From the NCBI RefSeq assembly GCF_017313085.1, contig NZ_JAFLNF010000005.1, positions 124,001 through 188,000 on the forward strand: a stretch of DNA of 64,000 nt. Direction: 5' to 3'. A model generated the notes under the pieces. That model was not told where the DNA came from and did not search any database. It was given only the letters and a program-made list of their open reading frames with translations. Both the position numbers and the translations under genes were made by a program. Positions 1 to 17,050 of this stretch are shown piece by piece; positions within the stretch are counted from its first letter, which is position 1; each line of letters opens with the position of its first letter. This DNA is from Roseibium limicola (lineage in GTDB: Bacteria > Pseudomonadota > Alphaproteobacteria > Rhizobiales > Stappiaceae).

Positions 1-36
1 CTGGTCAACTGCTTGGACGCAGGCGATTCGGCGTGA
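1..36 (+). CDS. Possible C-terminal tail of an upstream gene (partial)
   Basis: Frame 1 is open from the window edge and reads LVNCLDAGDSA before a TGA at 34-36. The next gene on the same strand starts about 27 bases later, which is compatible with an operon. Eleven residues are too few to name a function. It could equally be a chance open frame. Confidence 0.3.
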   Translation: MVNCLDAGDSA

Positions 37-62
37 TACGAGAACCTAGCTTGTTTTTAGTA

Positions 63-1287: not shown

Positions 1288-2649
1288 GTGCGAGTATCCA
1301 GTTTGGGTCAGGCGTTTCGAGTATTTTTGTTTCTGCAGGGGCCACCTGCGCGTTTCGCCAGGGTCCTCGCCGATGAACTCGACCTATTGGGTGCCAAAAG
1401 CTTACGCGTCAATCTTTGCGCAGGGGACTGGCTTGCTTGGCATGACCTGCGCTGCACAAACTATCGAGGCAGCCTGAGCGATTGGAAAGCGTGGCTTAGT
1501 GATTTCTGCCTAGCGAATGGCGTTACCGATATCGTGTATTACGCTGACCGGTTGCCATATCATGTGGCAGCACATGAAGTGGCTCAGGACCTGGGGATCG
1601 AGTGTTTTGCATATGAGTTCGGGTACCTGCGCCCGGATTGGATCACTCTTGAACGCAATGGAATGTCGGCTCATTCGTTGTTTCCCAATAACGCGGAAAC
1701 CATTCGGACCGCGGCGCGGGACCTTCCAGATATTGATCGACGACAGCTTTATGGACATAGCTTTGGCGAGGAAGCCTTCGTTGAAGTGATTCACAACATG
1801 TCAAATGTTGTTCTGGCATCGGCATTTCCCAAGTACGACCGAGACCGCTGCTATCACCCGCTGGCTGACTATACCCGCCATCTTTTCCGTCTGCCGCTGG
1901 CGCGCTGGCGCAATCGCCGCGCTGGGAAGGTGATCGACGATCTGGTGGCCTCCGGCACGCCTTACTATGTGTTTCCGCTGCAGCTGCAGAGCGACTATCA
2001 GCTGCGCTTCAATTCTCCTTTCAACCACATAGGCAAGGCTGCGGAAGAAGTCATACGTTCCTTCGCCAAGTCGGCGCCTGTGGAAGCTCATCTCGTCTTC
2101 AAGGTTCATCCGCTCGACAACGGCATCGAGCCCTGGACACGCATCTTGATGTCTGTTGCCAAGCGGTTTGGCGTCAAGCGCCGTGTCCGGATCATTGATG
2201 GCGGCAATCTCGATGAACTTCTACGGTATTCGCGTGGTGCCTTGACGATCAATTCTACGACTGGTCTGCATTCCCTGCGTGTAGGATGTCCGACGAAAGT
2301 TCTCGGTATCGCGCTCTACGACATGGAAGGGCTGACCTGTCAGGTGCCTATCGACGATTTCTGGAAGAACGGGACCGTGCCGGACCTCGAACTCCTGGAT
2401 TCGTTGGAGCGACTTCTGGCTGCCACGATCCAGGTCAAAGGTGACTTCTACCAACCGAAGGGGCAGCGCGTTGCCGCTTACGCTATGGCACGCCGGCTGA
2501 TGGAAAACCGGGTGAACGAACCCGGTGCACTATGCGAGGAGCCGCCGCGACTTGCGAGGGCGAAAGCGATGAATATTCCAGTGACCTTCGTTGAACAAAT
2601 GGCCAATCGGGGCAAAACCGAGCGGTGGTTCAATGCGTGGCGCCGCTGA
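1288..2649 (+). CDS. KpsS/RkpJ-like capsular polysaccharide glycosyltransferase, copy 1
   Basis: Member of the capsule polysaccharide biosynthesis/export family that includes KpsS, KpsC, LipB and rhizobial RkpJ. In Escherichia coli, KpsS and KpsC are beta-Kdo transferases that build the poly-Kdo linker between lipid and capsule; the same role is inferred here. Visible motifs are FLFLQGP near the N-terminus, LCAGDWLAW, ERNGMS, LPLQLQSDYQLR, the conserved KVHPLDNGIEPW and the NSTTGLHS stretch of the nucleotide-sugar fold. It ends with VNEPGALCEEPPRL. The first possible start after an in-frame TAA (1285-1287) is a GTG at 1288. No clear ribosome site precedes it, so TTG at 1303 is possible. The last 17 bases overlap the next gene, a close paralogue, implying translational coupling. 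At 453 residues it is a single-module protein, not a two-module KpsC. Confidence 0.85.
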   Translation: MRVSSLGQAFRVFLFLQGPPARFARVLADELDLLGAKSLRVNLCAGDWLAWHDLRCTNYRGSLSDWKAWLSDFCLANGVTDIVYYADRLPYHVAAHEVAQDLGIECFAYEFGYLRPDWITLERNGMSAHSLFPNNAETIRTAARDLPDIDRRQLYGHSFGEEAFVEVIHNMSNVVLASAFPKYDRDRCYHPLADYTRHLFRLPLARWRNRRAGKVIDDLVASGTPYYVFPLQLQSDYQLRFNSPFNHIGKAAEEVIRSFAKSAPVEAHLVFKVHPLDNGIEPWTRILMSVAKRFGVKRRVRIIDGGNLDELLRYSRGALTINSTTGLHSLRVGCPTKVLGIALYDMEGLTCQVPIDDFWKNGTVPDLELLDSLERLLAATIQVKGDFYQPKGQRVAAYAMARRLMENRVNEPGALCEEPPRLARAKAMNIPVTFVEQMANRGKTERWFNAWRR

Positions 2650-3976
2650 GACTACCAATATAGAAACTGTTTTGCCGGTAGAGGCTGTCTCTGCTCCTGG
2701 CTCCGAGCGCCACTTTCTGTTTCTCCAGGGCCCCCTGTCTCCTCTTTACCGACAAATGGGGAGGCGCCTTACCGCAGCTGGTGTGAGGGTATCGCGGATC
2801 AATTTATGTGCTGGTGACTGGCTGCACTGGCCCGGGCCACGTACAATCTCGTTTCGCGGCAAGGTCAGCGTCTGGCCTGAGTTTGTCGAACGCTTCATAC
2901 AGAAAAACGGCATTACAGACCTGGTTGTCCATGGGGATCAGCGAATCTACCACAAGGCTGCGATTGACGTCGCCTTTGCAGTAGGCGCACGTGTCTTTGT
3001 AACTGAACTCGGCCTTTTGCGGTCAGGTTGGATGACACTTGAGCGCAACGGCCTGTCGACCTTGAGCTGTTTCCCCGATGATCCGCAGCAGATCCGCGCA
3101 GTTTCTGAATCCGTTGGTCCCATTGATCTCGACAACCGGTTTGAGAAGTCGACCTGGCTAGAACTTGGGCCGGACGTCATTTACAATCTGTTGAATGTGG
3201 TTGCCAGGCCACTTTTCCCGCACTTTCAGCGTCATACGATCTATTCGCCTGTGCCGGAGTACCTGCGTGGAGCTTGGAAGATGATACGCGCCAAGAAGCG
3301 CGATCGAGAAGCGGCGGAGGTTGTTGCGCGTCTAAAACGGTTACGGGGGCCGCTCTTCCTGCTCCCGCTGCAGCTGGAAGGAGACTTTCAGCTGAGAGCC
3401 CATTCGCCCTTTGACAGCTTCTCCGAGGTTCTGGATACAATCCTGACGTCCTTTGCGAGAAACGCGCCTGCGAGTGCGAAGCTTTTGATCAAAAGCCATC
3501 CGTTGGATGTGGGATACGAAAACTGGCCGCAGGTCATAAAAGATATTTCCCGTCGCCGGGGTTTGGTGGGGCGTGTTGAGTATATCGACGGCGGCCGGAT
3601 GTCGGACCTGTTTCCGTTGGCAAGCGGACTGGTGACATTGAATTCCACAGCCGGATTGGAAGCGCTTATGGCAGGCGTTCCTGTCAAGACACTCGTACCA
3701 GCGCATTTCGACATCGTCGGGATGACGCACGATGGATTACTCGAAGATTTTTGGGGAGCGCCGAAAAGACCAGACACGGACCTTCTGGCTGCTTACTGCC
3801 GAGCCTTGGCCGGCACAGTGCAGGTGCCTGGCTCTATCCACAACAAGCAGGGCACTCGCATTGCAGCCGAAAACATGGTCCGCCGTATGCTTGAGTGCAG
3901 CGTCAATGAGCCTGGGGCGTATGTTTTTCCGCCTCCCAGGTTGGAGCGCGCGAGGGCCTTGGGTGTTCCGTTATGA
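2633..3976 (+). CDS. KpsS/RkpJ-like capsular polysaccharide glycosyltransferase, copy 2
   Basis: Second single-module KpsS/RkpJ-like protein, 447 residues from the ATG at 2633, which lies inside the end of copy 1. It repeats the landmarks of its neighbour: FLFLQGP, NLCAGDWLHW, ERNGLS, LPLQLEGDFQLR, KSHPLDVGYENW, NSTAGLEAL and VNEPGAYVFPPPRL. An in-frame ATG at 2591 exists, but the start at 2633 leaves a short variable N-terminus like that of copy 1. The two proteins are clearly paralogous but diverged, so they may add different linker sugars, as KpsS and KpsC do, or act on different acceptors. The family is cytoplasmic or loosely membrane-attached. The SDR gene follows 49 bases downstream, so all four plus-strand genes probably form one transcript. 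Substrate specificity is inference. Confidence 0.85.
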   Translation: MRGAAETTNIETVLPVEAVSAPGSERHFLFLQGPLSPLYRQMGRRLTAAGVRVSRINLCAGDWLHWPGPRTISFRGKVSVWPEFVERFIQKNGITDLVVHGDQRIYHKAAIDVAFAVGARVFVTELGLLRSGWMTLERNGLSTLSCFPDDPQQIRAVSESVGPIDLDNRFEKSTWLELGPDVIYNLLNVVARPLFPHFQRHTIYSPVPEYLRGAWKMIRAKKRDREAAEVVARLKRLRGPLFLLPLQLEGDFQLRAHSPFDSFSEVLDTILTSFARNAPASAKLLIKSHPLDVGYENWPQVIKDISRRRGLVGRVEYIDGGRMSDLFPLASGLVTLNSTAGLEALMAGVPVKTLVPAHFDIVGMTHDGLLEDFWGAPKRPDTDLLAAYCRALAGTVQVPGSIHNKQGTRIAAENMVRRMLECSVNEPGAYVFPPPRLERARALGVPL

Positions 3977-4025
3977 TGATATTGGCGGATCGACAACACT
4001 GATAAGCTGGAAACAGGAGGCTTGG

Positions 4026-4832
4026 ATGGCTGAGGCATACAAAACCATCGTTCTGACCGGGGCGAGCGGCGGCATTGGCGAAGCCCTGGCGAAACGCATG
4101 GCGAAGCCTGGTCGACATCTGGTGCTTATTGCCAGAGATCAGAAAAAACTGGATGCACTTGCGGCACAGGTCGCAGTTTTGGGTGCGACCGTGGAGACGG
4201 CTTCTGTCGATTCGCGGGACACGGAGCTGATGGGACGTACCTTGGCTGACGTGCAGCAGCGGTTTGAAATTGATCTGGTGATTGCCAATGCAGGGGTGAC
4301 AGCCGGGCTCGGTGCCGGCAATAGCCACGAAGCTCTCGAAGACTTCGACCGTCAGATCGACATCAACCTGCGTGGCACTGTTCATACAGTCGGCGCAGTG
4401 GTGGAAGGCATGCGATCACGTTTGAGGGGGCAAGTTGTCTTGATCTCGTCCCTGGCAGGTATGCGCGCCTTGCCGGAGATGCCAGGTTATAGTGCGACCA
4501 AGGCGGCAGTGATTGCCTATGGACACTCCTTGCGCGGTTGGCTGAGGCCGTTTGGTGTCAGTGTTACCATCATCTGCCCCGGTTTTGTGACGACGCCGAT
4601 GTCTGCGCGCCACAATGGTCCAAAGCCGCTTGAGTGGTCAGCAGAGAAAGCGGCAGACAGGATGTGGCGTGCCATTGAGGCCAAGCGAGCGTTTTTTGCC
4701 TTTCCGTTCTTGTTGGCGTGGGGAATTCGTTTGCAAAATCTTCTGCCTGCAAAACTTGGCGATATTTTCATGGGAGGCTTCGCAGCGACGATTGAGCCGG
4801 ATCCGCGCTATACGAAAAAACCGGACGTGTAA
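4026..4832 (+). CDS. rkpH: Short-chain dehydrogenase/reductase, RkpH-like
   Basis: NAD(P)-dependent classical SDR of 268 residues. The Rossmann glycine motif TGASGGIG lies at residues 11-18, NAG at 88-90, the catalytic Ser at 141/142, and Tyr155 and Lys159 in YSATK. The start at 4026 is set by AGGAGG at 4015-4020, although the frame is open far upstream across the end of the preceding gene. The C-terminal third (about 220-250) is rich in aromatic and hydrophobic residues (FFAFPFLLAWGI), as in membrane-associated SDRs that act on lipid substrates. In Sinorhizobium, rkpH sits with rkpA, rkpG and rkpJ in the rkp-1 region needed for K-antigen, and the neighbours here match. I infer that it reduces the keto group made by the RkpA/RkpG pair. 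The symbol rests on context plus family, so another lipid SDR cannot be excluded. Confidence 0.8.
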   Translation: MAEAYKTIVLTGASGGIGEALAKRMAKPGRHLVLIARDQKKLDALAAQVAVLGATVETASVDSRDTELMGRTLADVQQRFEIDLVIANAGVTAGLGAGNSHEALEDFDRQIDINLRGTVHTVGAVVEGMRSRLRGQVVLISSLAGMRALPEMPGYSATKAAVIAYGHSLRGWLRPFGVSVTIICPGFVTTPMSARHNGPKPLEWSAEKAADRMWRAIEAKRAFFAFPFLLAWGIRLQNLLPAKLGDIFMGGFAATIEPDPRYTKKPDV

Positions 4833-4913
4833 CAAACGCGCCCGGCTTTTGTTGTCCCTTGATTTAAGCTGCTGCGTACCCTTCGATCAGCTGCGCGAGC
4901 GTGACGGCTTGTC

Positions 4914-6299
4914 CTATGAGGACTTCAACAGCCGGTCCATAACCCCTGTATCGGCATTCAACTTGTCGAGCTCTTCCACAGTTGCATTCACCGCCCGGTC
5001 GATCTGCTCCAGCGTGTGGTCGCTGGTGATGAAAAAGCGCAGACGTGCCGACTTCTCAGCAACGGCAGGGAAGATGATCGGTAGTGCATTGATCCGCCGT
5101 TCCAGCAGATTGTTTGAGAGCATGGCAGCTCGCAAGCTGTCGCCGACAATTACCGGAACGACAGATGCGCCGATGCTTGGCCCCGTGTTCAAGCCGGCAT
5201 CCGTGGCGACTTTCAGGAAGTAAGCGCCATTTTCACGCAACTTGGCAACGCGTTCAGGCTCCTTTGCCATCATCTCGATCGACATAAGCGCAGCTGCACT
5301 AAGCGCTGGGGACAGACCGACTGAGAAAACAAAGCCAGGATTACTGACCTTCAGATAGTCGCACAGAACTTTTGACCCGGCGATATAGCCGCCGCAAGAC
5401 GAGAAGGTCTTACTGAGAGTACCCATCCAGAGTTCGACGGATGTTGGATCAATGCCTTGTTCCTCACAGATGCCACGGCCTGACTGGCCGAGCACTCCGA
5501 TGGAATGAGCTTCATCGACCATAAGCCATGAATCATAGGCCTGCTTTATCTGGATCACCCGCTTCAGGTCTGGGACGTCGCCGTCCATGGAATACAGGCC
5601 TTCTATGATGATCAGCACATTCTCGAACTTGTGCCGCTGCTCTTGCAGCAGACGTTCCAGTGCCTTGAAGTCATCGTGAGGGAAGTTGATACGAGTGGCG
5701 CCTGATAAGCGAGCGCCTTCGGCAATCGAGTTGTGAACAAGACTGTCGGTAACAATCAGGTCGCCTTTACCCATCAAGTGGCCGATCGTTGAGACGTTGG
5801 TCGCATGCCCAGACACCATGACGATAGAAGATTCCACCCCATGTAAATGGGCCAATGCAGTTTCTAGCTCACCATGAATCGGCCGCTCACCCGCTACAAT
5901 CCGACTGGCGGACGCGCTGGTGCCAAAGGTTTCAACTGCCTTTGCTGAAGCTTGGTTGATCAGCGGATGACCGTTGAGTCCAAGGTAGTTGTAAGAGGCG
6001 AAGTTGTCATAGGTCTCTCCATCGATCAGCGTAACGTTGCTGGCGATGCCCTGATGTGGACGGAAAAACGGATTGGTAACGCCGAGAATGTCTGCTGCCG
6101 CGCGTTGCATCTGGAGTTGTTTTACCTGCGGCAACTTGCGGAAGTCGAAGGCCTTCGGGCGCTTGTCCTTCTCGCGGCCAGCATTCTCCTGCAGACTTGA
6201 CGAACCAACTCTTGCGGAGCCGCTTCCCCGCCGATCCCGGGCAGATTTGCGACCGGTTCGCAGGTTGTCGATCAGTTTTGCCTTTTCCGAAGCATCCAT
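4914..6299 (-). CDS. rkpG: PLP-dependent alpha-oxoamine synthase, RkpG-like
   Basis: Family of 8-amino-7-oxononanoate synthase, serine palmitoyltransferase, 5-aminolevulinate synthase and 2-amino-3-ketobutyrate ligase: decarboxylative condensation of an amino acid with an acyl thioester. Landmarks are SYNYLGL (102-108), SRIVAGERPIHGELE, His189 expected to stack on the cofactor, VDEAHSIG (Asp262, His265) and the Schiff-base Lys297 in GTLSKTFSSCGGYIAG. The SGRGICEE and GARLSGATR stretches resemble serine palmitoyltransferase more than BioF by eye. The first 50 or so residues are a polar, charged extension absent from short BioF proteins and might dock with the synthase. The start lies 21 bases after the stop of rkpA, so both are one transcript. 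No bio genes are nearby, which argues against a biotin role. It probably offloads the RkpA-bound acyl chain; the amino acid used is unknown. Confidence 0.85.
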   Translation of the reverse strand: MDASEKAKLIDNLRTGRKSARDRRGSGSARVGSSSLQENAGREKDKRPKAFDFRKLPQVKQLQMQRAAADILGVTNPFFRPHQGIASNVTLIDGETYDNFASYNYLGLNGHPLINQASAKAVETFGTSASASRIVAGERPIHGELETALAHLHGVESSIVMVSGHATNVSTIGHLMGKGDLIVTDSLVHNSIAEGARLSGATRINFPHDDFKALERLLQEQRHKFENVLIIIEGLYSMDGDVPDLKRVIQIKQAYDSWLMVDEAHSIGVLGQSGRGICEEQGIDPTSVELWMGTLSKTFSSCGGYIAGSKVLCDYLKVSNPGFVFSVGLSPALSAAALMSIEMMAKEPERVAKLRENGAYFLKVATDAGLNTGPSIGASVVPVIVGDSLRAAMLSNNLLERRINALPIIFPAVAEKSARLRFFITSDHTLEQIDRAVNATVEELDKLNADTGVMDRLLKSS

Positions 6300-6320
6300 T
6301 CCGTAGGTCGTTTCTCAAAG

Positions 6321-9300
6321 TTAGAGGAAAGATCCCAATTCGCGACTTTTGTCGTTCATCCGTTGTTCAAGTTCCGCCAGATCACTCATATTCTCACCAG
6401 CGCCATCGATATGGGAGCTGGCGAGGCGTTGAGTTTCACCTGAGATACCCTCGTCACCGCTCTCGCCGAGAACTCGGCTTGCAATCCGCCCGGACAAATC
6501 GTTGAGCGTTGCACCATTTGCCAGCGACATAAGGGGAATGTCTATACCCAGCTGACGTTCCGCACTCATGCGTAATTCCAGTGCCATTAGTGAATCCATG
6601 CCGATTTCAGACAAGGGCTTATGTGCGTCAATATCATCGCCGGAGATACGAAGGATTTTGCCAATCTCGGCGGCCAGAAGCTTGCCAACAGTCTGGCTTG
6701 CCTCGACTTTGGTCATGCCTTTTAGCAGCACGTGCAGATCGACTGCCCCTTCCGAGCCCTGTCCATCATCTCCCGCGCCGACGCCCATCAAGGCAAAGAG
6801 TGGCGTACCGATAAGAGCCAGATCGCGGGAGGCTGCTGCCCAGTCGATCCTGGCAAAGCCGAGGGCCGCAGTTGCGACATCATCTTGCGGTTGCCGCATC
6901 AGATCGACAAGTCCGTCCAGCGCTTCACTCGCGGCCAGAGAATGCTTGCCCAGCTTGCGCGCGAGCAAGTCACCCACTTCGGTATTGCGAGCCAGATAGC
7001 CGGCATCGGAAATTGCACCCCAAGCAACTGCCAATCCAGCCAGTCCCTCTGTGCGGCGCTTGCGTGCCAGAGCTTCCAGATAAGCATTGGCAGCCACATA
7101 GTTGGCCTGTCCAGGGTTACCCACCAGTGTGGTGGCGGAGGAATAAACAACAAAGTGATCGAGCGAATCCTGTCGCGTCAACCGGTCCAGCAACTCAGCG
7201 CCGCGCACCTTCGGCGCGATAACCCTGTTCAGGGCATCTTGGTCGAGATTGGCGATCAACACGTCTTTCAAAACCATCGCAGTGTGGAATACCCCGGCGA
7301 TTGCCGGTTGGTCCTGGCGGATGGTCTGCAGCGCGCTGGCAACTGCGGATTCGTCGGTGATATCACACGCGTGAGCCGAGACCTGAACACCCATGGCTTC
7401 CAGCTCGCCGATCACGGCTTGTGCATCTTCTGAAGCGCCGCCGCGACGGCTGAGTACAGCCAGATGAGCAGCGCCATGCATAGCAAGGCGTTTCAGCAGT
7501 TCAGCACCGAATCCGCCGAAGCCGCCTGCAACCACATAGGTTGCGTCTGGCTTCATGGCCAGCGGCGCCGGCTCAGGCTTGATTTCCGGGATCTGCGGTG
7601 GGCGCAGAACAATCTTGCCAATATGTCCGGCCTGCTGCATCAGTCGGAAGGCTTCTACCACCTGATCTGCTTCAAAGGCACGATAGGGCAGAGGTGCCAG
7701 AGTTCCGTCTTCAAACAGCTCCACAAGCTCCTTGAAAAGGCGCTTTGCCAGCTTTGGCTGTCGCGTCAGAAGTTGATCGGCATCAATGCCGAAATAGGTC
7801 AGGTTCTGGCGGAACGGACGCAAGCCAATACGGGTGTTGCCATAATAATCACGCTTGCCGAGCTCCAGGAAGCGGCCGAAAGGCTTCAGAACCTCGATGC
7901 TGCGCTCCATTGCCTCTCCGAAGAGGGAGTTGAGCACCACATCGACACCCTCGCCAGCCGTCTCATCCATTACCGCGTCGACGAACTCCAAGGTCCGACT
8001 GTCGAGCACGACATCGGCCCCCAGAAGTGTCAGGAAGGCGCGTTTCTCCGGGGAGCCTGCAGTGGCAATCACTTTGGCGCCACGCCATTTGGCGATCTGT
8101 AGGGCGGCAAGCCCCACACCGCCCGCACCACCATGGATGAGGATCGTCTCGCCTTCCTCCAATGAGGCAAGTTTTACCAATGCATAGTAGGCCGTCAGGA
8201 AGGTGACTGGAATGGTCGCAGCTTCTTCTGGAGAAACAGTCGTCGGCATTGGCGCACAGCCGCTTTCATCCACCATGACATGGGCGGAGAAACAGGCCGG
8301 CGCAAAGGTGATGACCTGATCACCAGGCTGGAACCGGCTAACGTCTGGACCAACACGCACCACGGTGCCACAACATTCCATACCCAGCGTCGGTCCGGCA
8401 AAGCCGTCTTCCAAGGCCTCTTCCGGCAGCAGACCAAGAGCCCACATCACATCGCGGAAATTCAGGCCGCTGGCCTTCACTTCGATTTCCACATCCCCGG
8501 CTTTCAGCTCGGGGCGGGCGATTGGGGTCCAGGCAAGTTGATCGAGAGATCCCTGCTGGATGACGTCCAGGCGAACCGACGGCAAGCTGCCATCCGGCAG
8601 GTGGGTCTCGTCGAGCAGTCCACCTTGCAGAACACGCAGGCCATATCGCCGGTCACCGTCGAGAACGATTTCGCGTTCGTTGTCATCGGAGGCCAATTCC
8701 TGGGCAAGACGGGCCGCGGCCAGCCCCGGCGCCAGATCTGGAGCCAGATCAATGAGCTTCATCTTGATTTGCGGGAATTCATTCATTGCCACGCGGGCGT
8801 AACCCCAAAGGGCCGATTGCTCAGGTGCGGGCATTGCTGCCGTTGCCATGTCTCGCGCCGCATTTGGAGCGATGAAGGTGATTTGCCCCTCATCACCGCC
8901 ATGCGCATTCAGCACGCGCGTCAGCGCCCAAAGCCGATCATTGCTCAAGGCGAGAGCATCCGACGGATTGCCATAGGCGCCAAGCAGAAAAATGATTTGT
9001 CCGCCCTTGGCCGAGACGTCAGTCAGCTCGCTGAGAGAGCCGTTCATGTCGATGGCCAGATGGCCAATATCCGGTTCACCTTCGGCTGCGGGCACAGCAA
9101 TTTGGACAGGGTACCCCCGCTTTTCCAGGCAAGAGTGCAGACCTTCGGCCAATTTGCGAGACGTGCCTTCACGATCAGCAAGCACGACAATAGGCGCTTT
9201 TGTTTCTGACTGATCCACTGGAGCAGTATTTTCGTTGTCGGCGACTGCAGGTTCAAAAGACTTTGTGCGTGCCGAGCTAACGTCAATCTCGCCTTCGCTG

Positions 9301-12300
9301 GTTTCGAGCGCGCGCGTTTCGATCTCAGTCAGACCGAGCCCTTCCAGAACGCTTGCCCAATCCCGGTCCGTGTTCTCGTCGTCCTCTTCGTCGACAACGG
9401 CCCACCAATCTGCACCAATACCCTGAATAAGGTTTTCTAATGGAGACGGTAGTGGCTCTGCGGTCAGCCATTGTGCACCGACGATGGCAATGTCTTTCAG
9501 AAGGGCCAGCTGCTCACGGTTCAGATTCCCAGCTGGACCTGCCCCGATCACCAAGTCGAACCCACCGGTATCATCCGCAAGGTCTGCTAGCGGCACATGG
9601 CGTGTGCTACGAGATCCAGTCCATAGCCGTTCGGCCCGGGCAACATTACTGTTCATGGCATCACTGATGACCAGTTCCTGCGTTACAGGATCCAAGGCGC
9701 GATCAAGCGCGAGGGCCAGCCCTCCGGATTGGGCGCCGATCAAGGCAATGCGCAGCGAACGATCTTTGGGTGCCTCTGCCAGAAGCGCGAGGACAGCTTT
9801 TTTCAATCCGCTGTCGAGAGCCTGATTTGCGCCAGAGCCTTCGGTGTGGGCTGCGAAAAGCGAGTTCGCATAATATCCTTGCGCAGTCGCAGGAAGGCCA
9901 TTTTCAAGCAGATTCGGCAGCTCCTGCGAGAGCCGGGCGAGCAGTGAAGCCGTAGCAATTCGGTTGCCAGCCTCTCGGTAGACGGTCTGCATCAGCAGAT
10001 CGACACTTGGTCCATCAGCCGGGTCGGTGAGGATCCATGATGCAGTGTCACCTTCCTGGTCATGTATATCGGCAAGGCCACTTTCCAGCAACCAGTCGAG
10101 CAGACCTTCAAACAGCGGCTGTGCATTTTCATACAAGTGTCCGTCTGCAACCAGATCGGGAATTGTGAAGGGCGTACCACCTGCTACCTGGAACATGCCA
10201 GTATGCGCGACTGTACGGCCGAGAGCTTCGATCAGCAAAACGCTATCGCTCAGATCAGGCGCCGTTTCAGACGCAAATTCAGCCTGTTGGCCAAAAGCAT
10301 CAAGCGAACCACCAGGCAACAGTGTTTTTGCTAGCTGACGGGATCTGTCCGGTAGCAGGACTGCGGTCTGACGGTAGATCAGCTCGTCGGTGTGTTCGAT
10401 CTTGCCAAGGGTTACGGCGCGGAACCGGGTTTTCTCAAGACGTGCCACAACCAGACCATCGGTATCGATGAACTCAAAATTTGCTTCGAGCGATCGTGGC
10501 GAAGCCTTGGTGACCTTAATCAGGGTTTTTACCGGATCGACACCGGGCTGCAGCAAACGCAGGGCTCCGATACGAATGGGCAGGAAGCTGGTCTTTTTCG
10601 GCAGATCCGGGAGCTGAGATAACAGTGCGAACAAGCCATGGAAACCGCTGTCCAGCAGGCTCGGGCAGAAGGCAAACGGCAGGGAGGCGATGGCCGCATC
10701 ACGTGGTGATAAAGTCAACTCTGCTTCGGTCTGGGAGCTCGCGGTGACAGATTCAGCACGACGGAAGATCGGACCATAATTCAGTCCGAAAGTCTGGGTG
10801 ATGCGATACAGCTCATCCTTGTCAAGCTTCGCCTGCACGGCCTGGGACGACTGAAGCCTCGGCGTCCCCGTGGCGCTCGATACCGAGACATAATGCCCCC
10901 GCGCGTTCAGAGCAAACTCGCTGTCTTTCAAGCGCGGGCGAGAGAGCACTTCGACCACATGGTCGTCAGGAGAGAGGCGAACCAGCGTTTCAAAGCTGTC
11001 TCCATCCTCAAAAACCAGTGGACGCAAAATGTCGAAGTCGCGCAGCTCGATCTGATCGTGACCGCTCCATTGCAGGGCGGCTTTTAGGGCCATTTCGGCA
11101 AAGCCAGCCGCCGGAAAAACAACCGTGTCTTCGACCTTGTGGTCTGCCAGCCACGGATGGGCTTGCGCGTCGAGCGTATTGAACCATTCGGCAGCTTCTG
11201 GCCGCATCCGGTAACCGAGCAATGGAATGTCGACCCCAAAAATAAAGTCGACATCCTCATCGGTGGCTTCGGGCCGAATTTCGGTGTTCTGCCAAGGGTA
11301 TTGCGGCAAGGCAATTGCAACGTCGGGAGCGTCTCCGACAAAGGCGCTGAGTTCAGTCTCGCCACCAGCTGCGAGAATGCTGGCTGCAACCCGATCAAGC
11401 GGCGTACGAGCCTTTGCATCGGCCATAGACACCGGAGCCTTGGATTTCGGCGGCTGATCGAGAGATCCGATTACGGTTGCTCGGGCACCTTCAGCACGTA
11501 GCACATCGTTCACATAGGTCGACAAGACCGGCTTTGGACCGATCTCGACGAAGACGCCGATGCCACTCTGTGCCATCCGATTCGCGGCTTCAGAGAATAA
11601 AACAGGCTGACGCACGTTACGCCACCAATAGTCGGCATCCAGCAACGGTGCGGTTTCATCCGGTGTCACAGTGGAAAAGAACGGAAGGACGTGCTTGCCC
11701 GGCGTTACTTCTGACAGCGCTTTCAGCAGCGGTTCGCGAATTGGGTCAACCAGAGCGCTGTGGAACGGATAGGCCAGATTGAGGCGACGCATTGCCCACT
11801 TATTTTTGCGGGCAAACTTTGCGAAGGCATCGAGACTATCGACATCGCCAGAGATCGTCACGCTGCGCGGGCTGTTGATGGCCGCCAGCTCAAGGCGCGG
11901 CAAGCCGCTCGCAGCCAAAGCTTCGCGGGCCTTTTCTGCCGGTAGCAATAGGGCGGCCATGGAGCCGAGGTCGCGCACGACTTCCTGTTCTGTTGAACGC
12001 GCGTGAATAACCTTGACCGCTTGCGGGAGCGTCAGAGCACCACTGGCCCAAGCTGCGGCGACCTCACCAACGCTATGACCTATGACAGCGTTGGGTTCGA
12101 TACCGCGCATCTTCAGGCTTTCGGTCACGGCAACCTGAATGGCAAACAGCAACGGTTGTGCAATTTCGGTGCGCTCGATCTCGGCTTCCAGATCGTCGCT
12201 AAACAGGGTGGTCAGAAGGGACCAGCCGCCAACGCCCATGAAGATGTGATCGACCTTTTCGAAGCTCTCCTGAAAGCCCCGGTCCTGCTTGTAGGCCTCT

Positions 12301-13949
12301 TGGCCCATGCCGGCCCATTGTGCGCCGTTTCCGGAAAACACGAAACCGATTGGCACTTTCGGCTTTTGCGCTGATCCTGTGACAATCCGGTCGTCGCTTT
12401 CGTCCTTGATGAAGGCGTCCAGAGCCTGAAGCTTGTCTTCAAGGCTTTCGCCGAGAACGATCAGACGTTCGCTCAGCAGGTCACGTCGCTGCGCTGTGCT
12501 CAGGACAAGGTCTTTGGCCAACTGAGGCGCATTCGTCAGTCGATCCTTGTAGGTTTGAGCAAGTTCAGCCAGAGAGGCCTTGGAGCGTGCGGACAGAAGC
12601 AGAGGGGCGAGAACGGACGGTTTTGACGAAGTTGAGGCACTGGAAGAGGCAGCAACCGGATCGCCGTCAGAAATGACAGCATGTGCGTTGGTGCCACCGA
12701 AACCAAAGGAGTTGATGCCAGCCAAACGAGGCTTGTCGCTGGGCGCGAGGGGAGTTGCCTCAGCTGCAACTTCGAGATTCAATTCGTCAAATGGAATATC
12801 GGGGTTCGGTTCCTTGAAGTGCAGAGACTTCGGCAGCAGGTCATGTTTCAGCGCCAGAATTGATTTTAGAACACCAACCAGGCCAGAGGCGGGTTCAAGG
12901 TGGCCGACGTTGGTCTTTACCGAGCCGATAAGCAATTTATCATCGCGTTTCTGACTGACGCTGGTGCCAAGAGCTTGAGCTTCGGCCGGGTCGCCGACCC
13001 TGGTGCCTGTGCCGTGCGCTTCAATGAAGGCAAGGTCGTTCGGATTGACGTTCAGCTGGCCGCCGTAAATCTCTTGGAGCAGATTGCCCTGCGCTTCCGA
13101 TGAGGGAAGGGACATGCCGACGGTTCGACCGTCGGCATTCAAGCCGCAGGCGACAAGCCGCGCATGTGCCATTGTACCAGGCAGTTTCTTGGCGCGCTCC
13201 GACTGAAGTACCATGACGACGCCGCCTTCCGAGCGCACATAGCCATCGCCATTGGCGTCGAATGCCTGACAGAGGCCGGTCGGCGACAACATGGTCGCGC
13301 GCGAGAACCCGATGAACGGGAAAGGGCTCAGAAGCAGACTGATGCCGCAGACGATTGCAGTGTCGATCCGGCCGCTCTCAAGCGCGCTGACAGCTTCGTG
13401 TAGTGCGACAAGTGAAGAGGAGCATGCCGTGTCCACGGTAAAGCTCGGGCCGCGCAAATCGTAAATATAGGAAATCCGATTCGAGACAATCGACAGCGTA
13501 TTGCCGGTCATGAACTGCATGTCGGCATTGGCCGGATCTGTCAGGAAACGGTGGTGGTAATCGAGAGAGGAAGCGCCGACATAAACCCCGGTTGAACTTC
13601 CGGCAATGTCGCTTGGGCGAATGTTGGCGTGTTCCAGCGATTCCCAGACCAGTTGCAGCAACAACCGCTGCTGCGGATCCATCTGCAGGGCTTCACGAGG
13701 GGAGATGCCGAAGAAGGCAGGGTCAAACCCCCAGACGTCATCAATCTGCCCGGCAGCCCAAGTGTATGAACGGCCAGGCATGGCGGTGTCAGGATGACGA
13801 AACCTGGAAAGCGGCCAGCGTTGCGGGTCGACACTCGTAACTGAGCAGGTGCCCGAACGCAGGAGTTCCCAGAATTCTTCAGTGGTATTTGCTCCTGGGA
13901 GTCGGCTTGCATAACCGACGATACGAATATCGGAACTCAGAGACGCCAC
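6321..13949 (-). CDS. rkpA: Giant type I polyketide/fatty acid synthase, RkpA-like
   Basis: 2542 residues with one full reducing module. Ketosynthase about 7-428 has Cys176 (DTACSSS), His312 and His350. Acyltransferase about 530-830 has Ser626 in GHSVGE and YPFH at 727-730, of malonyl-like type. Dehydratase about 905-1185 has His937 and Asp1100 (LLDSGFH), but the usual HxxxGxxxxP Gly is Asp941. A methyltransferase-like stretch about 1390-1500 has a degraded SAM loop (IGAQSGG). A structural KR-like part is followed by enoylreductase about 1795-2115 (GGAGGVG at 1940-1946). Ketoreductase about 2135-2390 has AGGFGGFG, Ser2270/2271, Tyr2284 and Asn2288. The acyl carrier Ser2453 is in GMDSL. No thioesterase is present. 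The start is GTG with AAGGA six bases upstream. Sinorhizobium RkpA, of similar size, is required for K-antigen and thought to make a special lipid. An iterative fatty-acid-type product is inferred. Confidence 0.92.
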   Translation of the reverse strand: MASLSSDIRIVGYASRLPGANTTEEFWELLRSGTCSVTSVDPQRWPLSRFRHPDTAMPGRSYTWAAGQIDDVWGFDPAFFGISPREALQMDPQQRLLLQLVWESLEHANIRPSDIAGSSTGVYVGASSLDYHHRFLTDPANADMQFMTGNTLSIVSNRISYIYDLRGPSFTVDTACSSSLVALHEAVSALESGRIDTAIVCGISLLLSPFPFIGFSRATMLSPTGLCQAFDANGDGYVRSEGGVVMVLQSERAKKLPGTMAHARLVACGLNADGRTVGMSLPSSEAQGNLLQEIYGGQLNVNPNDLAFIEAHGTGTRVGDPAEAQALGTSVSQKRDDKLLIGSVKTNVGHLEPASGLVGVLKSILALKHDLLPKSLHFKEPNPDIPFDELNLEVAAEATPLAPSDKPRLAGINSFGFGGTNAHAVISDGDPVAASSSASTSSKPSVLAPLLLSARSKASLAELAQTYKDRLTNAPQLAKDLVLSTAQRRDLLSERLIVLGESLEDKLQALDAFIKDESDDRIVTGSAQKPKVPIGFVFSGNGAQWAGMGQEAYKQDRGFQESFEKVDHIFMGVGGWSLLTTLFSDDLEAEIERTEIAQPLLFAIQVAVTESLKMRGIEPNAVIGHSVGEVAAAWASGALTLPQAVKVIHARSTEQEVVRDLGSMAALLLPAEKAREALAASGLPRLELAAINSPRSVTISGDVDSLDAFAKFARKNKWAMRRLNLAYPFHSALVDPIREPLLKALSEVTPGKHVLPFFSTVTPDETAPLLDADYWWRNVRQPVLFSEAANRMAQSGIGVFVEIGPKPVLSTYVNDVLRAEGARATVIGSLDQPPKSKAPVSMADAKARTPLDRVAASILAAGGETELSAFVGDAPDVAIALPQYPWQNTEIRPEATDEDVDFIFGVDIPLLGYRMRPEAAEWFNTLDAQAHPWLADHKVEDTVVFPAAGFAEMALKAALQWSGHDQIELRDFDILRPLVFEDGDSFETLVRLSPDDHVVEVLSRPRLKDSEFALNARGHYVSVSSATGTPRLQSSQAVQAKLDKDELYRITQTFGLNYGPIFRRAESVTASSQTEAELTLSPRDAAIASLPFAFCPSLLDSGFHGLFALLSQLPDLPKKTSFLPIRIGALRLLQPGVDPVKTLIKVTKASPRSLEANFEFIDTDGLVVARLEKTRFRAVTLGKIEHTDELIYRQTAVLLPDRSRQLAKTLLPGGSLDAFGQQAEFASETAPDLSDSVLLIEALGRTVAHTGMFQVAGGTPFTIPDLVADGHLYENAQPLFEGLLDWLLESGLADIHDQEGDTASWILTDPADGPSVDLLMQTVYREAGNRIATASLLARLSQELPNLLENGLPATAQGYYANSLFAAHTEGSGANQALDSGLKKAVLALLAEAPKDRSLRIALIGAQSGGLALALDRALDPVTQELVISDAMNSNVARAERLWTGSRSTRHVPLADLADDTGGFDLVIGAGPAGNLNREQLALLKDIAIVGAQWLTAEPLPSPLENLIQGIGADWWAVVDEEDDENTDRDWASVLEGLGLTEIETRALETSEGEIDVSSARTKSFEPAVADNENTAPVDQSETKAPIVVLADREGTSRKLAEGLHSCLEKRGYPVQIAVPAAEGEPDIGHLAIDMNGSLSELTDVSAKGGQIIFLLGAYGNPSDALALSNDRLWALTRVLNAHGGDEGQITFIAPNAARDMATAAMPAPEQSALWGYARVAMNEFPQIKMKLIDLAPDLAPGLAAARLAQELASDDNEREIVLDGDRRYGLRVLQGGLLDETHLPDGSLPSVRLDVIQQGSLDQLAWTPIARPELKAGDVEIEVKASGLNFRDVMWALGLLPEEALEDGFAGPTLGMECCGTVVRVGPDVSRFQPGDQVITFAPACFSAHVMVDESGCAPMPTTVSPEEAATIPVTFLTAYYALVKLASLEEGETILIHGGAGGVGLAALQIAKWRGAKVIATAGSPEKRAFLTLLGADVVLDSRTLEFVDAVMDETAGEGVDVVLNSLFGEAMERSIEVLKPFGRFLELGKRDYYGNTRIGLRPFRQNLTYFGIDADQLLTRQPKLAKRLFKELVELFEDGTLAPLPYRAFEADQVVEAFRLMQQAGHIGKIVLRPPQIPEIKPEPAPLAMKPDATYVVAGGFGGFGAELLKRLAMHGAAHLAVLSRRGGASEDAQAVIGELEAMGVQVSAHACDITDESAVASALQTIRQDQPAIAGVFHTAMVLKDVLIANLDQDALNRVIAPKVRGAELLDRLTRQDSLDHFVVYSSATTLVGNPGQANYVAANAYLEALARKRRTEGLAGLAVAWGAISDAGYLARNTEVGDLLARKLGKHSLAASEALDGLVDLMRQPQDDVATAALGFARIDWAAASRDLALIGTPLFALMGVGAGDDGQGSEGAVDLHVLLKGMTKVEASQTVGKLLAAEIGKILRISGDDIDAHKPLSEIGMDSLMALELRMSAERQLGIDIPLMSLANGATLNDLSGRIASRVLGESGDEGISGETQRLASSHIDGAGENMSDLAELEQRMNDKSRELGSFL

Positions 13950-14366
13950 GTGAAGTCCTTTATAGTGTCTTTTTACTTCGAGTCAGAAATGGGAATGAGC
14001 GCGCTTTAATCGCGTGTCCCAAGGTCGCGTGGCACCGGCGAGATGCATGCTAGCATAAATACAGCTGTGCTTCTCGATCGTTGCCTTGAAGTCGCGACCT
14101 TCAAACGCAAGCAAAATGTCCTCACCCTCAATATCCCTTTAAGACCATGTCGCCGCTAAGGCAAAAAATTGAAACGCCTTTGAAACAATACCCCAGCGGC
14201 CTTGTCCAATCTACGAACATTTCAACAGAGGCACAGGATCTGCTGGTGCAGCCAATATCCTCAATATAGCCGAAGGAATTTCGACTGTAGCATTTGTCAC
14301 AGTTTCCTCTGTGCGGCAAGCTCGTGAAAGGCAATCTACAATAGTTATTACCACGCGGTAGGTAGC
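13950..14366. promoter_or_regulatory. 417-base gap containing the rkpA leader/promoter region
   Basis: Non-coding stretch between the DNA glycosylase gene and rkpA, both read leftward. The rkpA ribosome site (AAGGA on the minus strand) lies at its left edge. The middle (about 14140-14260) is relatively AT-rich, as expected of a promoter zone. I could not pick a convincing -35/-10 pair. The short open frame at 14128-14334 has no ribosome site and no family resemblance, so I do not call it. Confidence 0.4.
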
Positions 14367-15593
14367 CTAGCGGGTTTCCCTTTGCCAGTCTTTCTCGAAG
14401 CTAAGGGTTGTCAGCTGGCAAAAGCGAGCCAGACGATAAAGTTCCTTTTCCAACGAAAGGTCTCGTGCCTTGGATGCTCGAATACCACGCTCTGGCCAGT
14501 AGGCGATTACGTTGAGGCTACCGTCTTTCCGATTTGCTCGCATGTCGATACGGCCAATCATTCGGGATCCTTCCAGTACCGGAAAAACATAATAGCCATA
14601 TGTACGCAGAGGTTCGGGTACGAACACCTCTATCTTGTAGTCGAAGTCGAACAGGCGCATCGCTCTTTTGCGGTCTCGTAGCATCGGATCGAAGGGCGAT
14701 AGAATTCTGACTTTTCCGGGCGGGTTTGGCAGTGTTTCCATAGTCTGTAGAGTAAGGGGACGCATGTAACTGGTGCGAGACCGACCATCGCAGTCGAGAA
14801 TGTCGACCGCTTGTATCTCTCCGCGGGCTTCCGCTGCCAGAGCCCAGGTCTTGGCCTCGTTCGGTGTAATCAAGTCGAGGAAGGCTGCCAATTCGCCGGA
14901 TGTGGCAAAGCCGAGCCGATCAAGCGCCATCTGACAGGCAAAGGCGATGGTTTCCTCAAGCTCAGGCTTTCGCGTCAGGATATGATCCGGCACGACATTC
15001 TCGGTCAGATCGTAGACCTTCTTGAAGCCGTCGCGTCCGGTGACGCTGAGTGCGCCGGTGCGCCATAGAAATTCCAGCGCCGTCTTTGAAGGGTGCCATT
15101 CCCACCACCCACCCTTGGAGCGGGGTTCGTCTTTACCGACATCCCCGGATGTTGCCGGGCCGTGTTGAGCAATTTGATGCAGGACGTCCTGGAACTTCTG
15201 CTGGAAGTCGTGCTGTTGCCAGCGCTCCCATCGTCCGCTGAGGCGTTCCTTGTCTCGGGTGAACTTGTGCTTCCAGTGGGGGAAGAACTCCATTGGAATG
15301 AAGGATGCGTCGTGCGTCCACTGCTCAAACAGCTGGCGATCTTTCTCGTAGAGGCGTTTGAGTTGGTTTTCCCTGTAGGTTCCAAGACGAGAGCGGAGGA
15401 TCATGTGATGGGCCCGCGCCACCGTATTGATGCTGTCGATCTGGACGAAGCCCAGGTTCTGGATCGTCGATTGAAGTCGTGCTGAGACACTGCTTTCTTT
15501 GTTCGGTGGGCGACTCAACCCGTGGCGGTCGAGGAAGAGCCGGCGAGCTTGCTCATTGGAAACTTGTGGGCGTGATGGGGAGGGGGCTGGCAT
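14367..15593 (-). CDS. YcaQ/AlkX-type DNA glycosylase (winged-helix, HTH_42 family)
   Basis: 408-residue protein of the winged-helix HTH_42 family that includes Escherichia coli YcaQ (AlkX) and Streptomyces AlkZ, glycosylases that unhook interstrand crosslinks and remove bulky alkyl adducts. The N-terminus reads LGFVQIDSINTVARAHHMIL. The QID triad matches the QxD catalytic motif of the YcaQ branch rather than the QxQ of AlkZ. Later conserved stretches include WTHDASFIPMEFFPHW, ATSGELAAFL, LTPNEA, LSPFDPMLRDRKRAMRLFDFDYKIEVFVP and VLEGSRMIGRIDMRA. The length is normal for the family. It is likely monocistronic and unrelated to the capsule genes on either side. Enzymatic activity is inferred from the motif. 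Confidence 0.82.
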   Translation of the reverse strand: MPAPSPSRPQVSNEQARRLFLDRHGLSRPPNKESSVSARLQSTIQNLGFVQIDSINTVARAHHMILRSRLGTYRENQLKRLYEKDRQLFEQWTHDASFIPMEFFPHWKHKFTRDKERLSGRWERWQQHDFQQKFQDVLHQIAQHGPATSGDVGKDEPRSKGGWWEWHPSKTALEFLWRTGALSVTGRDGFKKVYDLTENVVPDHILTRKPELEETIAFACQMALDRLGFATSGELAAFLDLITPNEAKTWALAAEARGEIQAVDILDCDGRSRTSYMRPLTLQTMETLPNPPGKVRILSPFDPMLRDRKRAMRLFDFDYKIEVFVPEPLRTYGYYVFPVLEGSRMIGRIDMRANRKDGSLNVIAYWPERGIRASKARDLSLEKELYRLARFCQLTTLSFEKDWQRETR

Positions 15594-15981
15594 AAACGCT
15601 CTTTATGATCTGTAGTACCGGTCCATTAAAGTGAGGGCCGACTTGACTGTCAGTCTAGGCAATTTGAACCGGGCTTGGAAAGGATTGTGGCATGCTGCTG
15701 CCTTGCAAATTTCGTATGGTGTGTGCAAGAGCAGGCGGGTTGTTCGGTCGTAGCTGATAATCCGAAGAGTTGAGGGCCTTCGCGCGGGTAAACTGGTCCG
15801 CGCAAGGAGTGCTGTGCACGTTCGGAATAAACTTTGCCAAACCGGGTCTGGATTCAGTGGAATATTCCCGAAGAACGCGCTGGGCAGCATTCTCTTTGCT
15901 CAACAGGCTTCGCGGTGGATGCTAGAAACTGTGCTCTGAGATCTAGAGATTTAACTGCTTGTGAATGGAAGACGAGGACTG
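15594..15981. other. 388-base divergent intergenic region
   Basis: Lies between the leftward glycosylase gene and the rightward ferredoxin-NADP reductase gene, so it should hold both promoters. GAGGA at about 15974, just before 15982, is the ribosome site of the reductase. The minus-strand open frames 15603-15890 and 15655-15903 lack ribosome sites and have compositions typical of chance frames. I see no RNA gene or repeat. Confidence 0.35.
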
Positions 15982-16794
15982 ATGAACGTTCTTTCCAAAC
16001 CTGCTGATCTGGAAGCTGCAGCCCCTGCGGGCGCGTTCATCCAGGAAGTGACATCGGTTCAGCATTACACTGACCACCTGTTCAAGTTCCGCATGACACG
16101 GCCGGCAAGCTTCCGCTTCCGTTCCGGCGAGTTCGTGATGATCGGTCTGATGATTGATGGAAAGCCGCTTTATCGCGCCTATTCCATTGCCAGCCCCTCT
16201 TGGGATGAAGAGCTGGAATTCTTCTCCATCAAGGTTCCTGATGGGCCTTTGACCCAGTATCTGCAGAAAGTGCAGCCGGGTGACGCTGTTCTGATGAAGA
16301 AGAAGCCGACAGGCACGCTGGTGAATGATGCCCTTGTGCCGGGTAAGCGTGTTTACATGTTCTCCACTGGCACTGGTCTGGCGCCCTTCGCCAGCCTGAT
16401 CCGCGACCCGGACACTTACGAAAAGTTTGACGAGGTCATCGTGACTCACACCTGTCGTCAGGTGGAAGAGCTGCGGTACGGCCTGGATCTGGTGGAAGCC
16501 ACTAAAAATGATCCACTGATCGGCGAGCTCGCTGCTGAAAAGTTGAAGCATTTTACTTCGGTGACCCGTGAAGACTATCCGGTCAAGGGGCGGATTACCG
16601 ACCTGATCGAGAATGGGCGCCTGTTTGAAGAGTTGGGCGTGCCGCCTCTGGATCCTGCCATCGATCGCGGAATGATCTGTGGCTCGATGGACATGCTACG
16701 CGATACCAAGGCAATCCTTGAGAAGGCTGGCTTGCATGAAGGCGCCAACAACAAGCCTGCCGAATTTGTCGTGGAGCGCGCCTTCGTTGGCTGA
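15982..16794 (+). CDS. fpr: Ferredoxin-NADP(+) reductase
   Basis: FAD-dependent reductase moving electrons between NADPH and ferredoxin or flavodoxin, of the bacterial Fpr subclass; 270 residues. The FAD-binding part shows YRAYSIASPSWDEELEFFSIKV, with the RxYS motif that holds the flavin. The NADP part shows MFSTGTGLAPFASLIRDP and THTCRQVEELRYG, plus MICGSMDML. The C-terminus ends VERAFVG, with no plant-type terminal Tyr. The start is set by GAGGA seven bases before ATG 15982; an in-frame GTG at 15961 is unlikely. It stands alone with a hairpin terminator after it. In related bacteria Fpr supports oxidative-stress recovery and radical enzymes, a role inferred here. Confidence 0.92.
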   Translation: MNVLSKPADLEAAAPAGAFIQEVTSVQHYTDHLFKFRMTRPASFRFRSGEFVMIGLMIDGKPLYRAYSIASPSWDEELEFFSIKVPDGPLTQYLQKVQPGDAVLMKKKPTGTLVNDALVPGKRVYMFSTGTGLAPFASLIRDPDTYEKFDEVIVTHTCRQVEELRYGLDLVEATKNDPLIGELAAEKLKHFTSVTREDYPVKGRITDLIENGRLFEELGVPPLDPAIDRGMICGSMDMLRDTKAILEKAGLHEGANNKPAEFVVERAFVG

Positions 16795-16846
16795 TTCTCC
16801 GGTCTGAAGCTCGCTTCCTCCCGAGATTCACCGCGCTAGATTATTG

Positions 16847-16876
16847 AACGGCTGTCTGAATGGGCGGCCGTTTTTG
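16847..16876 (+). terminator. Rho-independent terminator of the ferredoxin-NADP reductase gene
   Basis: The left arm AACGGCTGTC (16847-16856) pairs with GGGCGGCCGTT (16862-16872), with two G-T wobbles. It is followed directly by a T-rich run. It lies 53 bases after the stop codon. Confidence 0.75.
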
Positions 16877-17050
16877 TTTTTATTCCCTAAGGCTTCTGCG
16901 CTGTTTATGCATGAATTCTGCGTGAACTGTGTGTTGGTCAAGCCATGTCTGGACACGAACGTAGCGGAATGGCACTAGTTTTAGGCCAAGTAATAAATGC
17001 TCCGGGTATCTTTATTGTTCCGGCTAGCGAATGGGAGGCAAGCTCCGAGA

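Follow-up and report, generated by a model that had tools for sequence, protein, structure and literature searches.

Organization of the locus

The stretch of DNA analysed here (the window: 64,000 nucleotides of Roseibium limicola, contig NZ_JAFLNF010000005.1, positions 124,001 to 188,000 of the forward strand; contig 13 of a 4.51-Mb genome that is 99.84% complete) carries, next to a group of capsule genes, the three genes rkpA, rkpG and rkpH, which are predicted to encode a route to a sphingoid base. The host is a marine Roseibium-type alphaproteobacterium (Stappiaceae) and not a nodulating rhizobium, so that data on the K-antigen of Sinorhizobium carry over by homology only. The features of the locus are listed below; re-reading of the sequence reproduced the coordinates given for rkpH, rkpG and rkpA in the preliminary description.

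6321-13949, minus strand: rkpA, GTG start, single-module fully reducing iterative type I polyketide synthase (PKS)/fatty acid synthase (Pfam domains and motifs)
4914-6299, minus strand: rkpG, pyridoxal phosphate (PLP)-dependent alpha-oxoamine synthase (AOS) of the RkpG/SgaB-type clade (trees, residues, model)
4026-4832, plus strand: rkpH, short-chain dehydrogenase/reductase (SDR), predicted 3-keto-sphinganine reductase (adh_short; ribosome-binding site AGGAGG)
2636-3976, plus strand: homologue of KpsS/KpsC-type transferases of 3-deoxy-D-manno-oct-2-ulosonic acid (Kdo), directly upstream of rkpH (PF05159, 218 bits)
1288-2649, plus strand: second KpsS/KpsC-type Kdo transferase homologue (PF05159, 258 bits)
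33-1205, plus strand: KpsD/Wza-type polysaccharide export protein, first capsule-strand gene in the window (Poly_export and SLBB domains)

While rkpG starts just past the rkpA stop on the same minus strand, rkpH is convergent with rkpG on the other strand and follows about 50 bases 3' of the second PF05159 gene on that strand, giving a plus-strand order of KpsD-type gene, two PF05159 (KpsC/KpsS-type) genes and rkpH. The reductase gene is outside the rkpA-rkpG operon and in line with the Kdo-transferase genes, and the locus combines rkpA-rkpG-rkpH with capsule genes, the gene set of rkp-1, including the PF05159 homologues of the KpsC/KpsS anchor system. Both PF05159 genes score under the NCBIfam KpsS cut-off, KpsS being the best model for the 2636-3976 product. 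The short gap between this KpsS-type gene and rkpH (window 3977-4025) is shared with a few close relatives, and in some other Roseibium relatives (L033-L036) an extra PF05159 gene of 581 aa lies between the two.

The RkpA synthase

RkpA comprises 2542 aa with the Pfam domain order ketosynthase (KS), acyltransferase (AT), dehydratase (DH), enoyl reductase (ER), ketoreductase (KR) and acyl carrier protein (ACP). The motifs TACSSS, HGTGT, NVGH, GHSVGE, YPFHS, GGAGGVG, YVAAN and GMDSL of the KS, AT, ER, KR and ACP domains are intact, and the DH motif reads HxxxD rather than the textbook HxxxG (HKVEDTVVFP), with Asp for Gly at a position that varies in the family (G 42, E 22, D 17 among 96 PKSs). 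A Pfam search for a thioesterase domain in RkpA found none and the protein stops approximately 90 aa past the ACP serine motif, which bears out the earlier description of a synthase that ends in an acyl carrier. The product is predicted from this domain content to be a saturated ACP-bound chain. A single reducing module with a terminal ACP and without thioesterase is equally the architecture of the SgaABC type of sphingolipid synthesis, described in Pseudomonas fluorescens MYb115 (Peters et al. 2025, PMC12134224). Shorter PKSs of about 2100-2230 aa occur at two related loci (L058 and L060); in L058 no ER domain is seen and a separate zinc-type dehydrogenase gene follows the AOS gene, so that the enoyl reductase may act in trans.

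The RkpG alpha-oxoamine synthase

RkpG had been proposed to be closer to serine palmitoyltransferase (SPT) than to the biotin enzyme BioF, a reading that raw profile scores alone would not have backed. Assignment to an NCBIfam equivalog failed, as every cut-off was missed: the highest score is obtained with BioF (TIGR00858, 340 bits versus a cut-off of 426), and the SPT equivalogs NF047600, NF047599 and NF047603 give 293/640, 262/500 and 199/670 bits (score/cut-off), respectively, so that RkpG is not filed as a canonical SPT but only as an enzyme working like one. Phylogeny and backbone geometry, on the other hand, uphold the proposal. A tree built from 82 AOSs unites all 36 RkpGs that are encoded beside an RkpA-type PKS in a single group (support 99/87) on the SPT side, apart from BioF, 5-aminolevulinate synthase (ALAS) and KBL (100/95), and this comparison, which had been put forward as a check, thus places RkpG with the SPTs. 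In a second tree with named relatives, the PKS-linked AOSs of Pseudomonas, Burkholderia, Nitrosomonas and Planktothrix fall inside the RkpG clade, as does an RkpG-like AOS without PKS (L027); RkpG therewith lies, as in the SgaABC type, beside a PKS and in an SPT-side clade together with Pseudomonas PKS-linked AOSs. The AlphaFold model of RkpG (pLDDT 89.9) has its lowest root-mean-square deviation among the top PDB matches to the SPT of Sphingobacterium multivorum (1.7 Å). By E-value a Thermus AOS is the first match to the model. In pairwise PDB scores, too, a Thermus AOS comes first for RkpG and KBL first for the Pseudomonas AOS, and these scores were dropped as an arbiter between SPT and other AOSs. 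The nearest row outside the RkpG clade is human SPTLC2 and not the bacterial SPTs (99/94; 97/95 in the second tree), a grouping that would matter for the question of how eukaryotic SPT arose and that, with a long branch and a single eukaryotic row, is a lead only.

That RkpG is BioF, placed beside rkpA incidentally, draws on the highest profile score and was rejected, with a residual probability close to nil: the score is below its cut-off, the clade is separate, the enzyme is PKS-linked in the loci examined and a profile search found no BioB above cut-off anywhere in the genome. Because BioB is absent, RkpG is not considered a biotin enzyme, and the previous remark that biotin genes are not near holds in a stronger, genome-wide form. 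With RkpG as query, one other AOS is found in the genome, ALAS.

The active-site motifs quoted previously for RkpG were found in the sequence, and no PLP or catalytic residue is altered. H189, D262, H265, K297 and R421 (His138, Asp210, His213, Lys244 and Arg367 of S. multivorum SPT) are kept in 36/36 PKS-linked homologues, and S132 and T294 (Ser81 and Thr241) in 35 of the 36; the roles of most of these residues in SPT have been described (PMC10196870). At the position of Ser81, ALAS has Thr and KBL has Val, and RkpG lies outside the clades of both enzymes and has neither residue. When 36 positions of the active site are compared, RkpG agrees with a Pseudomonas PKS-linked AOS at 32 of them, with SPTs at 19 and with BioF, KBL and ALAS at 13-17. 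Judged from these residues and the trees, RkpG is predicted to free the RkpA chain through decarboxylative condensation with an amino acid, probably L-serine.

RkpG could alternatively be a plain acyltransferase that places the RkpA chain on an existing phospholipid or sugar, with an acyl anchor devoid of a long-chain base as the outcome. The partial anchor of Sinorhizobium meliloti 1021 poly-Kdo, said to have been described by Fraysse in 2005, reportedly consists of phosphoglycerol with a hydroxylated C28 acid, and such an acid could argue for a plain acyl anchor or could be the N-acylated form of a sphingoid base. The conservation of all PLP and substrate-carboxylate residues and a linked SDR that would be left with no obvious substrate make this alternative very improbable, and we know of no AOS-fold enzyme that acts without an amino acid.

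Somewhat less remote, albeit still decidedly unlikely, is the condensation of alanine, glycine or another amino acid to a 1-deoxy-sphingoid or a different amino ketone, with the rest of the model kept. Specificity is not readable from the sequence, SPT itself takes alanine and glycine at a low rate (PMC10196870) and the RkpG pocket differs from that of S. multivorum SPT at 17/36 positions. Against these points stand S132, which corresponds to Ser81 of SPT and not to the Thr of ALAS or the Val of KBL, and a pocket nearly identical to those of Pseudomonas PKS-linked AOSs, SgaB of MYb115 being virtually exclusive for L-serine; a 1-deoxy base would, moreover, have no hydroxyl for a phosphoglycerol head. 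Condensation with L-serine is thus preferred.

The RkpH reductase and the proposed hand-off from synthase to release enzyme

RkpH is an intact SDR with the motifs TGASGGIG and YSATK and an adh_short match, the SDR partner as found in SgaABC-type modules, where its role as reductase is predicted. It is 40% identical to the SDR of a Pseudomonas PKS-AOS capsule cluster, with which it shares the best NCBIfam model, both below cut-off. Reading the substrate from profiles was abandoned, as only generic SDR families were returned; of the earlier designation as a lipid-type SDR, the SDR stands, whereas its profile is generic and its gene lies outside the rkpA-rkpG operon. RkpH is predicted to reduce 3-keto-sphinganine.

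The AOS gene directly follows the PKS gene in the RkpG-clade loci examined, except in the Burkholderia-type with one gene between, and a few RkpG-like relatives are without any PKS. Two natural fusions exist: a 2611-aa protein with the order KS-AT-DH-ER-KR-ACP-AOS (L057 of genome G227, 9335-17167) and an AOS match within an annotated PKS gene on Planktothrix agardhii plasmid p3 (L176, 7611-15209). What looked like a fusion of RkpA and RkpG in G046, with a frame of 2716 aa, turned out to be merely an overlapping open frame. In the RkpG model an N-terminal helix and a disordered linker precede the conserved domain and the N-terminus is net positive in 59/63 separate (unfused) AOSs of the family; this basic extension may dock on the PKS.

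Variation around this arrangement has been observed. The L057 cluster also holds HlyD, FtsX, ABC, OEP, SDR and cytidylyltransferase-type genes as well as a neighbour which we take to resemble inositol-phosphate synthase, and because of these genes its sphingolipid likely carries a different head. RkpG-like AOSs with 41-46% identity but without RkpA-type PKS (L027, L044, L059, L061, L062, L063 and L070) are often found beside an SDR, that of L027 adjoining a stand-alone ketosynthase and a MaoC dehydratase; these loci may perform the same chemistry in a type II form. In Burkholderiaceae (L177, L179) the PKS and AOS genes are separated by a gene for an LpxC-type deacetylase, with a GNAT gene after the AOS in Paraburkholderia, and these enzymes may N-acylate or deacylate the base. 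From gene order, the succession AOS-deacetylase-PKS-LTA synthase (lipoteichoic acid synthase)-SDR may equal wcbT-S-R-Q-P.

Linkage and co-inheritance with capsule genes

The association with the capsule, previously offered as a mere possibility, finds support in synteny and co-inheritance far outside this genome. Within about 10 kb of 85 PKS-AOS loci of at least 18 kb, capsule or LTA-synthase-like genes are present at 69, compared to 0/18 SPT/BioF control loci (p = 4e-11, a value that overstates the case as the loci are not independent samples, although the contrast is still large). Homologues of KpsC/S, KpsD, E or M accompany 47 of the 85 loci, an LTA-synthase-like gene 40 and an SDR 44. On a plasmid of Pseudomonas sp. 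TMW 2.1634 the order is PKS, AOS, PhyH, capsule gene, GNAT, LTA synthase, SDR, two capsule genes, KpsF, KdsB and KdsA, and on pSymB of S. meliloti Ak57 it is PKS, AOS, SDR, an unannotated LTA-synthase-like gene and a KpsS-like gene, with KpsF also present. A Caballeronia cluster consists of SDR, LTA synthase, PKS, LpxC-like deacetylase, AOS and an export system, and is resembled by a Paraburkholderia cluster with PKS, AOS, SDR and LTA synthase together with capsule genes.

Equally, inheritance is joint. Of the 37 genomes of the genus, that of the window among them, 25 have RkpG together with KpsC/S and 12 have neither; in a set of 61 genomes both occur in 27, RkpG only in 1, KpsC/S only in 0 and neither in 33, and the presence or absence of RkpH tracks this pattern.

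These data also bear on the unlikely alternative that the RkpA-G-H sphingoid is a free membrane or secreted lipid merely needed for capsule export and not a covalent anchor. Free sphinganines are the main products reported for MYb115 and some homologous clusters lack capsule genes and have MacB-like exporters, which would suit a free lipid. The strict co-inheritance with KpsC/S, the position of rkpH in line with the Kdo-transferase genes and the recurrent pairing of the module with both an LTA-synthase-like gene and KpsC/S speak for an anchor.

Some further genes of the window are mentioned for completeness. An AlkZ-like DNA glycosylase gene (14367-15593) lies directly upstream of rkpA on the same strand and is probably unrelated. 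At 19175-21036 a PseF-like cytidylyltransferase gene (best model pseudaminic acid, below cut-off) is followed by a polysaccharide pyruvyl transferase gene; this pair, not far from the locus, may belong to the capsule or to a surface glycan.

A putative sphingoid acceptor for the capsule linker

In the order of events proposed here, RkpA, working iteratively, would assemble a long saturated acyl chain bound to the ACP of the same protein, RkpG would release this chain by decarboxylative condensation, most probably with L-serine, to 3-keto-sphinganine, and RkpH would reduce the ketone to a sphinganine-type amino alcohol. A phosphoglycerol head would subsequently be added to the base, in many relatives probably by the neighbouring LTA-synthase-family enzyme; membrane enzymes of PF00884 that belong to the LTA-synthase group are able to take phosphoglycerol from phosphatidylglycerol and transfer it. 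The resulting phosphoglycerol-sphinganine, with one long chain and a phosphoglycerol head, would mimic and replace lyso-phosphatidylglycerol as the acceptor lipid in the membrane, and KpsS/KpsC-type enzymes would begin the Kdo linker of an ABC-exported capsule on it. As KpsS uses (lyso-)phosphatidylglycerol, the predicted product resembles its lyso form and PF00884 enzymes transfer phosphoglycerol, the succession of chain synthesis, condensation, reduction, phosphoglycerol addition and Kdo transfer is the most economical one. That the RkpA-G-H sphingoid base, with phosphoglycerol, is the lipid acceptor for the capsule Kdo linker is considered the probable reading, by a modest measure. For this organism we infer the amino acid, the chain length, the reaction of RkpH, the addition of phosphoglycerol and the function as anchor, while serine-specific AOS activity and C24-C28 sphinganines have been demonstrated in a homologous type of system (PMC12134224).

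Several observations weigh against an anchor of this kind. Comparison of active sites cannot prove serine over alanine or glycine for RkpG, and the profiles of RkpH are, as stated, generic. An LTA-synthase-like gene was sought at the window locus and none was found; three PF00884 genes reside elsewhere in the genome, among them one membrane candidate with a weak match (22.6%). Of the PKS-AOS loci surveyed, 16/85 have no capsule or LTA-synthase gene in the flanking DNA available, and the L057 and L058 clusters carry MacB/FtsX-type exporters instead of capsule genes, from which it follows that the module also serves other lipids and is not bound to capsules. As to the precedent, the phosphoglycerol-sphinganines of MYb115 are tentative assignments from mass only (PMC12134224), and SgaB has been likened to RkpG by its published description and through Pseudomonas PKS-linked AOSs. 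On balance, of the previously proposed series of PKS chain, AOS release and keto reduction, the frame is supported by phylogeny, active sites, the missing biotin synthesis, the natural fusions and SgaABC, whereas serine as the amino acid, the RkpH reaction and the covalent anchor are predictions.

That K-antigen requires the rkp-1 lipid genes has been recognized since the 1990s, with the product still termed a specific lipid carrier. If true, a sphingoid anchor names this lipid and its chemistry, explains why many proteobacterial capsule loci contain a PKS, a PLP enzyme and a reductase, joins the 2025 discovery of PKS-derived sphingolipids to capsule biology and predicts sphingolipids in many genomes thought to lack them. 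With a likelihood slightly short of even, an entire class of capsules exported by ABC transporters (rhizobial K-antigen, Burkholderia wcb, Halomonas, Nitrosomonas, Pseudomonas and others) might be anchored by a PKS-derived phosphoglycerol-sphingoid and not by a glycerophospholipid, the host-protective sphingolipids of MYb115 being intermediates of such a pathway. The idea of a PKS-sphingolipid itself is no longer new; the link to the capsule appears unstated before. In the open-licence PMC literature no paper linking capsule with sphingolipid or SPT was found, though a subscription paper could do so, and no source found there names the rkp-1 lipid as a sphingoid, in agreement with the earlier statement that it has been treated only as a specialised lipid.

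Comparison with known systems

Canonical bacterial SPTs (Sphingomonas, Caulobacter, Sphingobacterium) share the fold and catalytic residues of RkpG and form a neighbouring branch. They are, however, stand-alone enzymes of about 400 aa without PKS or capsule genes in the control loci, whereas RkpG has an N-terminal basic helix extension. The fungal fumonisin and sphingofungin pathways resemble the module in combining a reducing PKS, release by an AOS and 3-keto reduction by an SDR (FUM13, SphF; named in PMC12134224); they lead to toxins and not to capsule lipids, and the sequence comparison is limited to a weak PDB match to SphA.

In Escherichia coli group 2 capsules, KpsS adds the first Kdo to (lyso-)phosphatidylglycerol. 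Likewise, KpsC/KpsS-type enzymes are encoded beside the module and an acceptor with a phosphoglycerol head is predicted here. The acceptor in E. coli is a bulk (lyso-)phospholipid, however, while a dedicated PKS-AOS-SDR route is predicted for the window. The poly-Kdo of S. meliloti 1021 is reported, in the title of a work cited in other papers, to have a phospholipid anchor. The rkp-1 region of S. meliloti (rkpA, rkpGHI, J) and Burkholderia wcb contain the same PKS type in capsule clusters, WcbR and RkpA having been recognized as one PKS type in orthologous capsule clusters (PMC3908369), and rkp-1 is regarded in reviews as producing a specific lipid carrier for the secretion of K-antigen (PMC4881576). 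In contrast to rkp-1, rkpH of Roseibium is on the opposite strand and no gene occupies the rkpI position.

The closest likeness is to SgaABC, with a single-module iterative PKS, an AOS of SPT type and a KDSR-like SDR as in RkpA-G-H. Mutants of MYb115 in sgaA or sgaB lack C24-C28 sphinganines, SgaB has been purified and shown to be an AOS with SPT activity that is specific for serine, and SgaC has been proposed as the reductase; 6,101 homologous sga clusters, mostly from Burkholderia, have been reported (PMC12134224). The same paper names neither capsule nor rkp and treats the product as a secondary metabolite. In the window, by contrast, the SDR gene is placed among kps genes, and the neighbourhood contains no LTA-synthase gene. 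In L175 and L111, the two Pseudomonas clusters that are readable as far as the SDR and whose AOSs fall in the RkpG clade, the SDR gene comes fifth after that of the AOS (with one capsule gene split in L111), and the locus tags of MYb115, from RS19800 for SgaB to RS19775 for SgaC, indicate the same spacing. Because this spacing equals that of Pseudomonas capsule clusters, the sga cluster of MYb115 is predicted by analogy to be itself a capsule-type locus.

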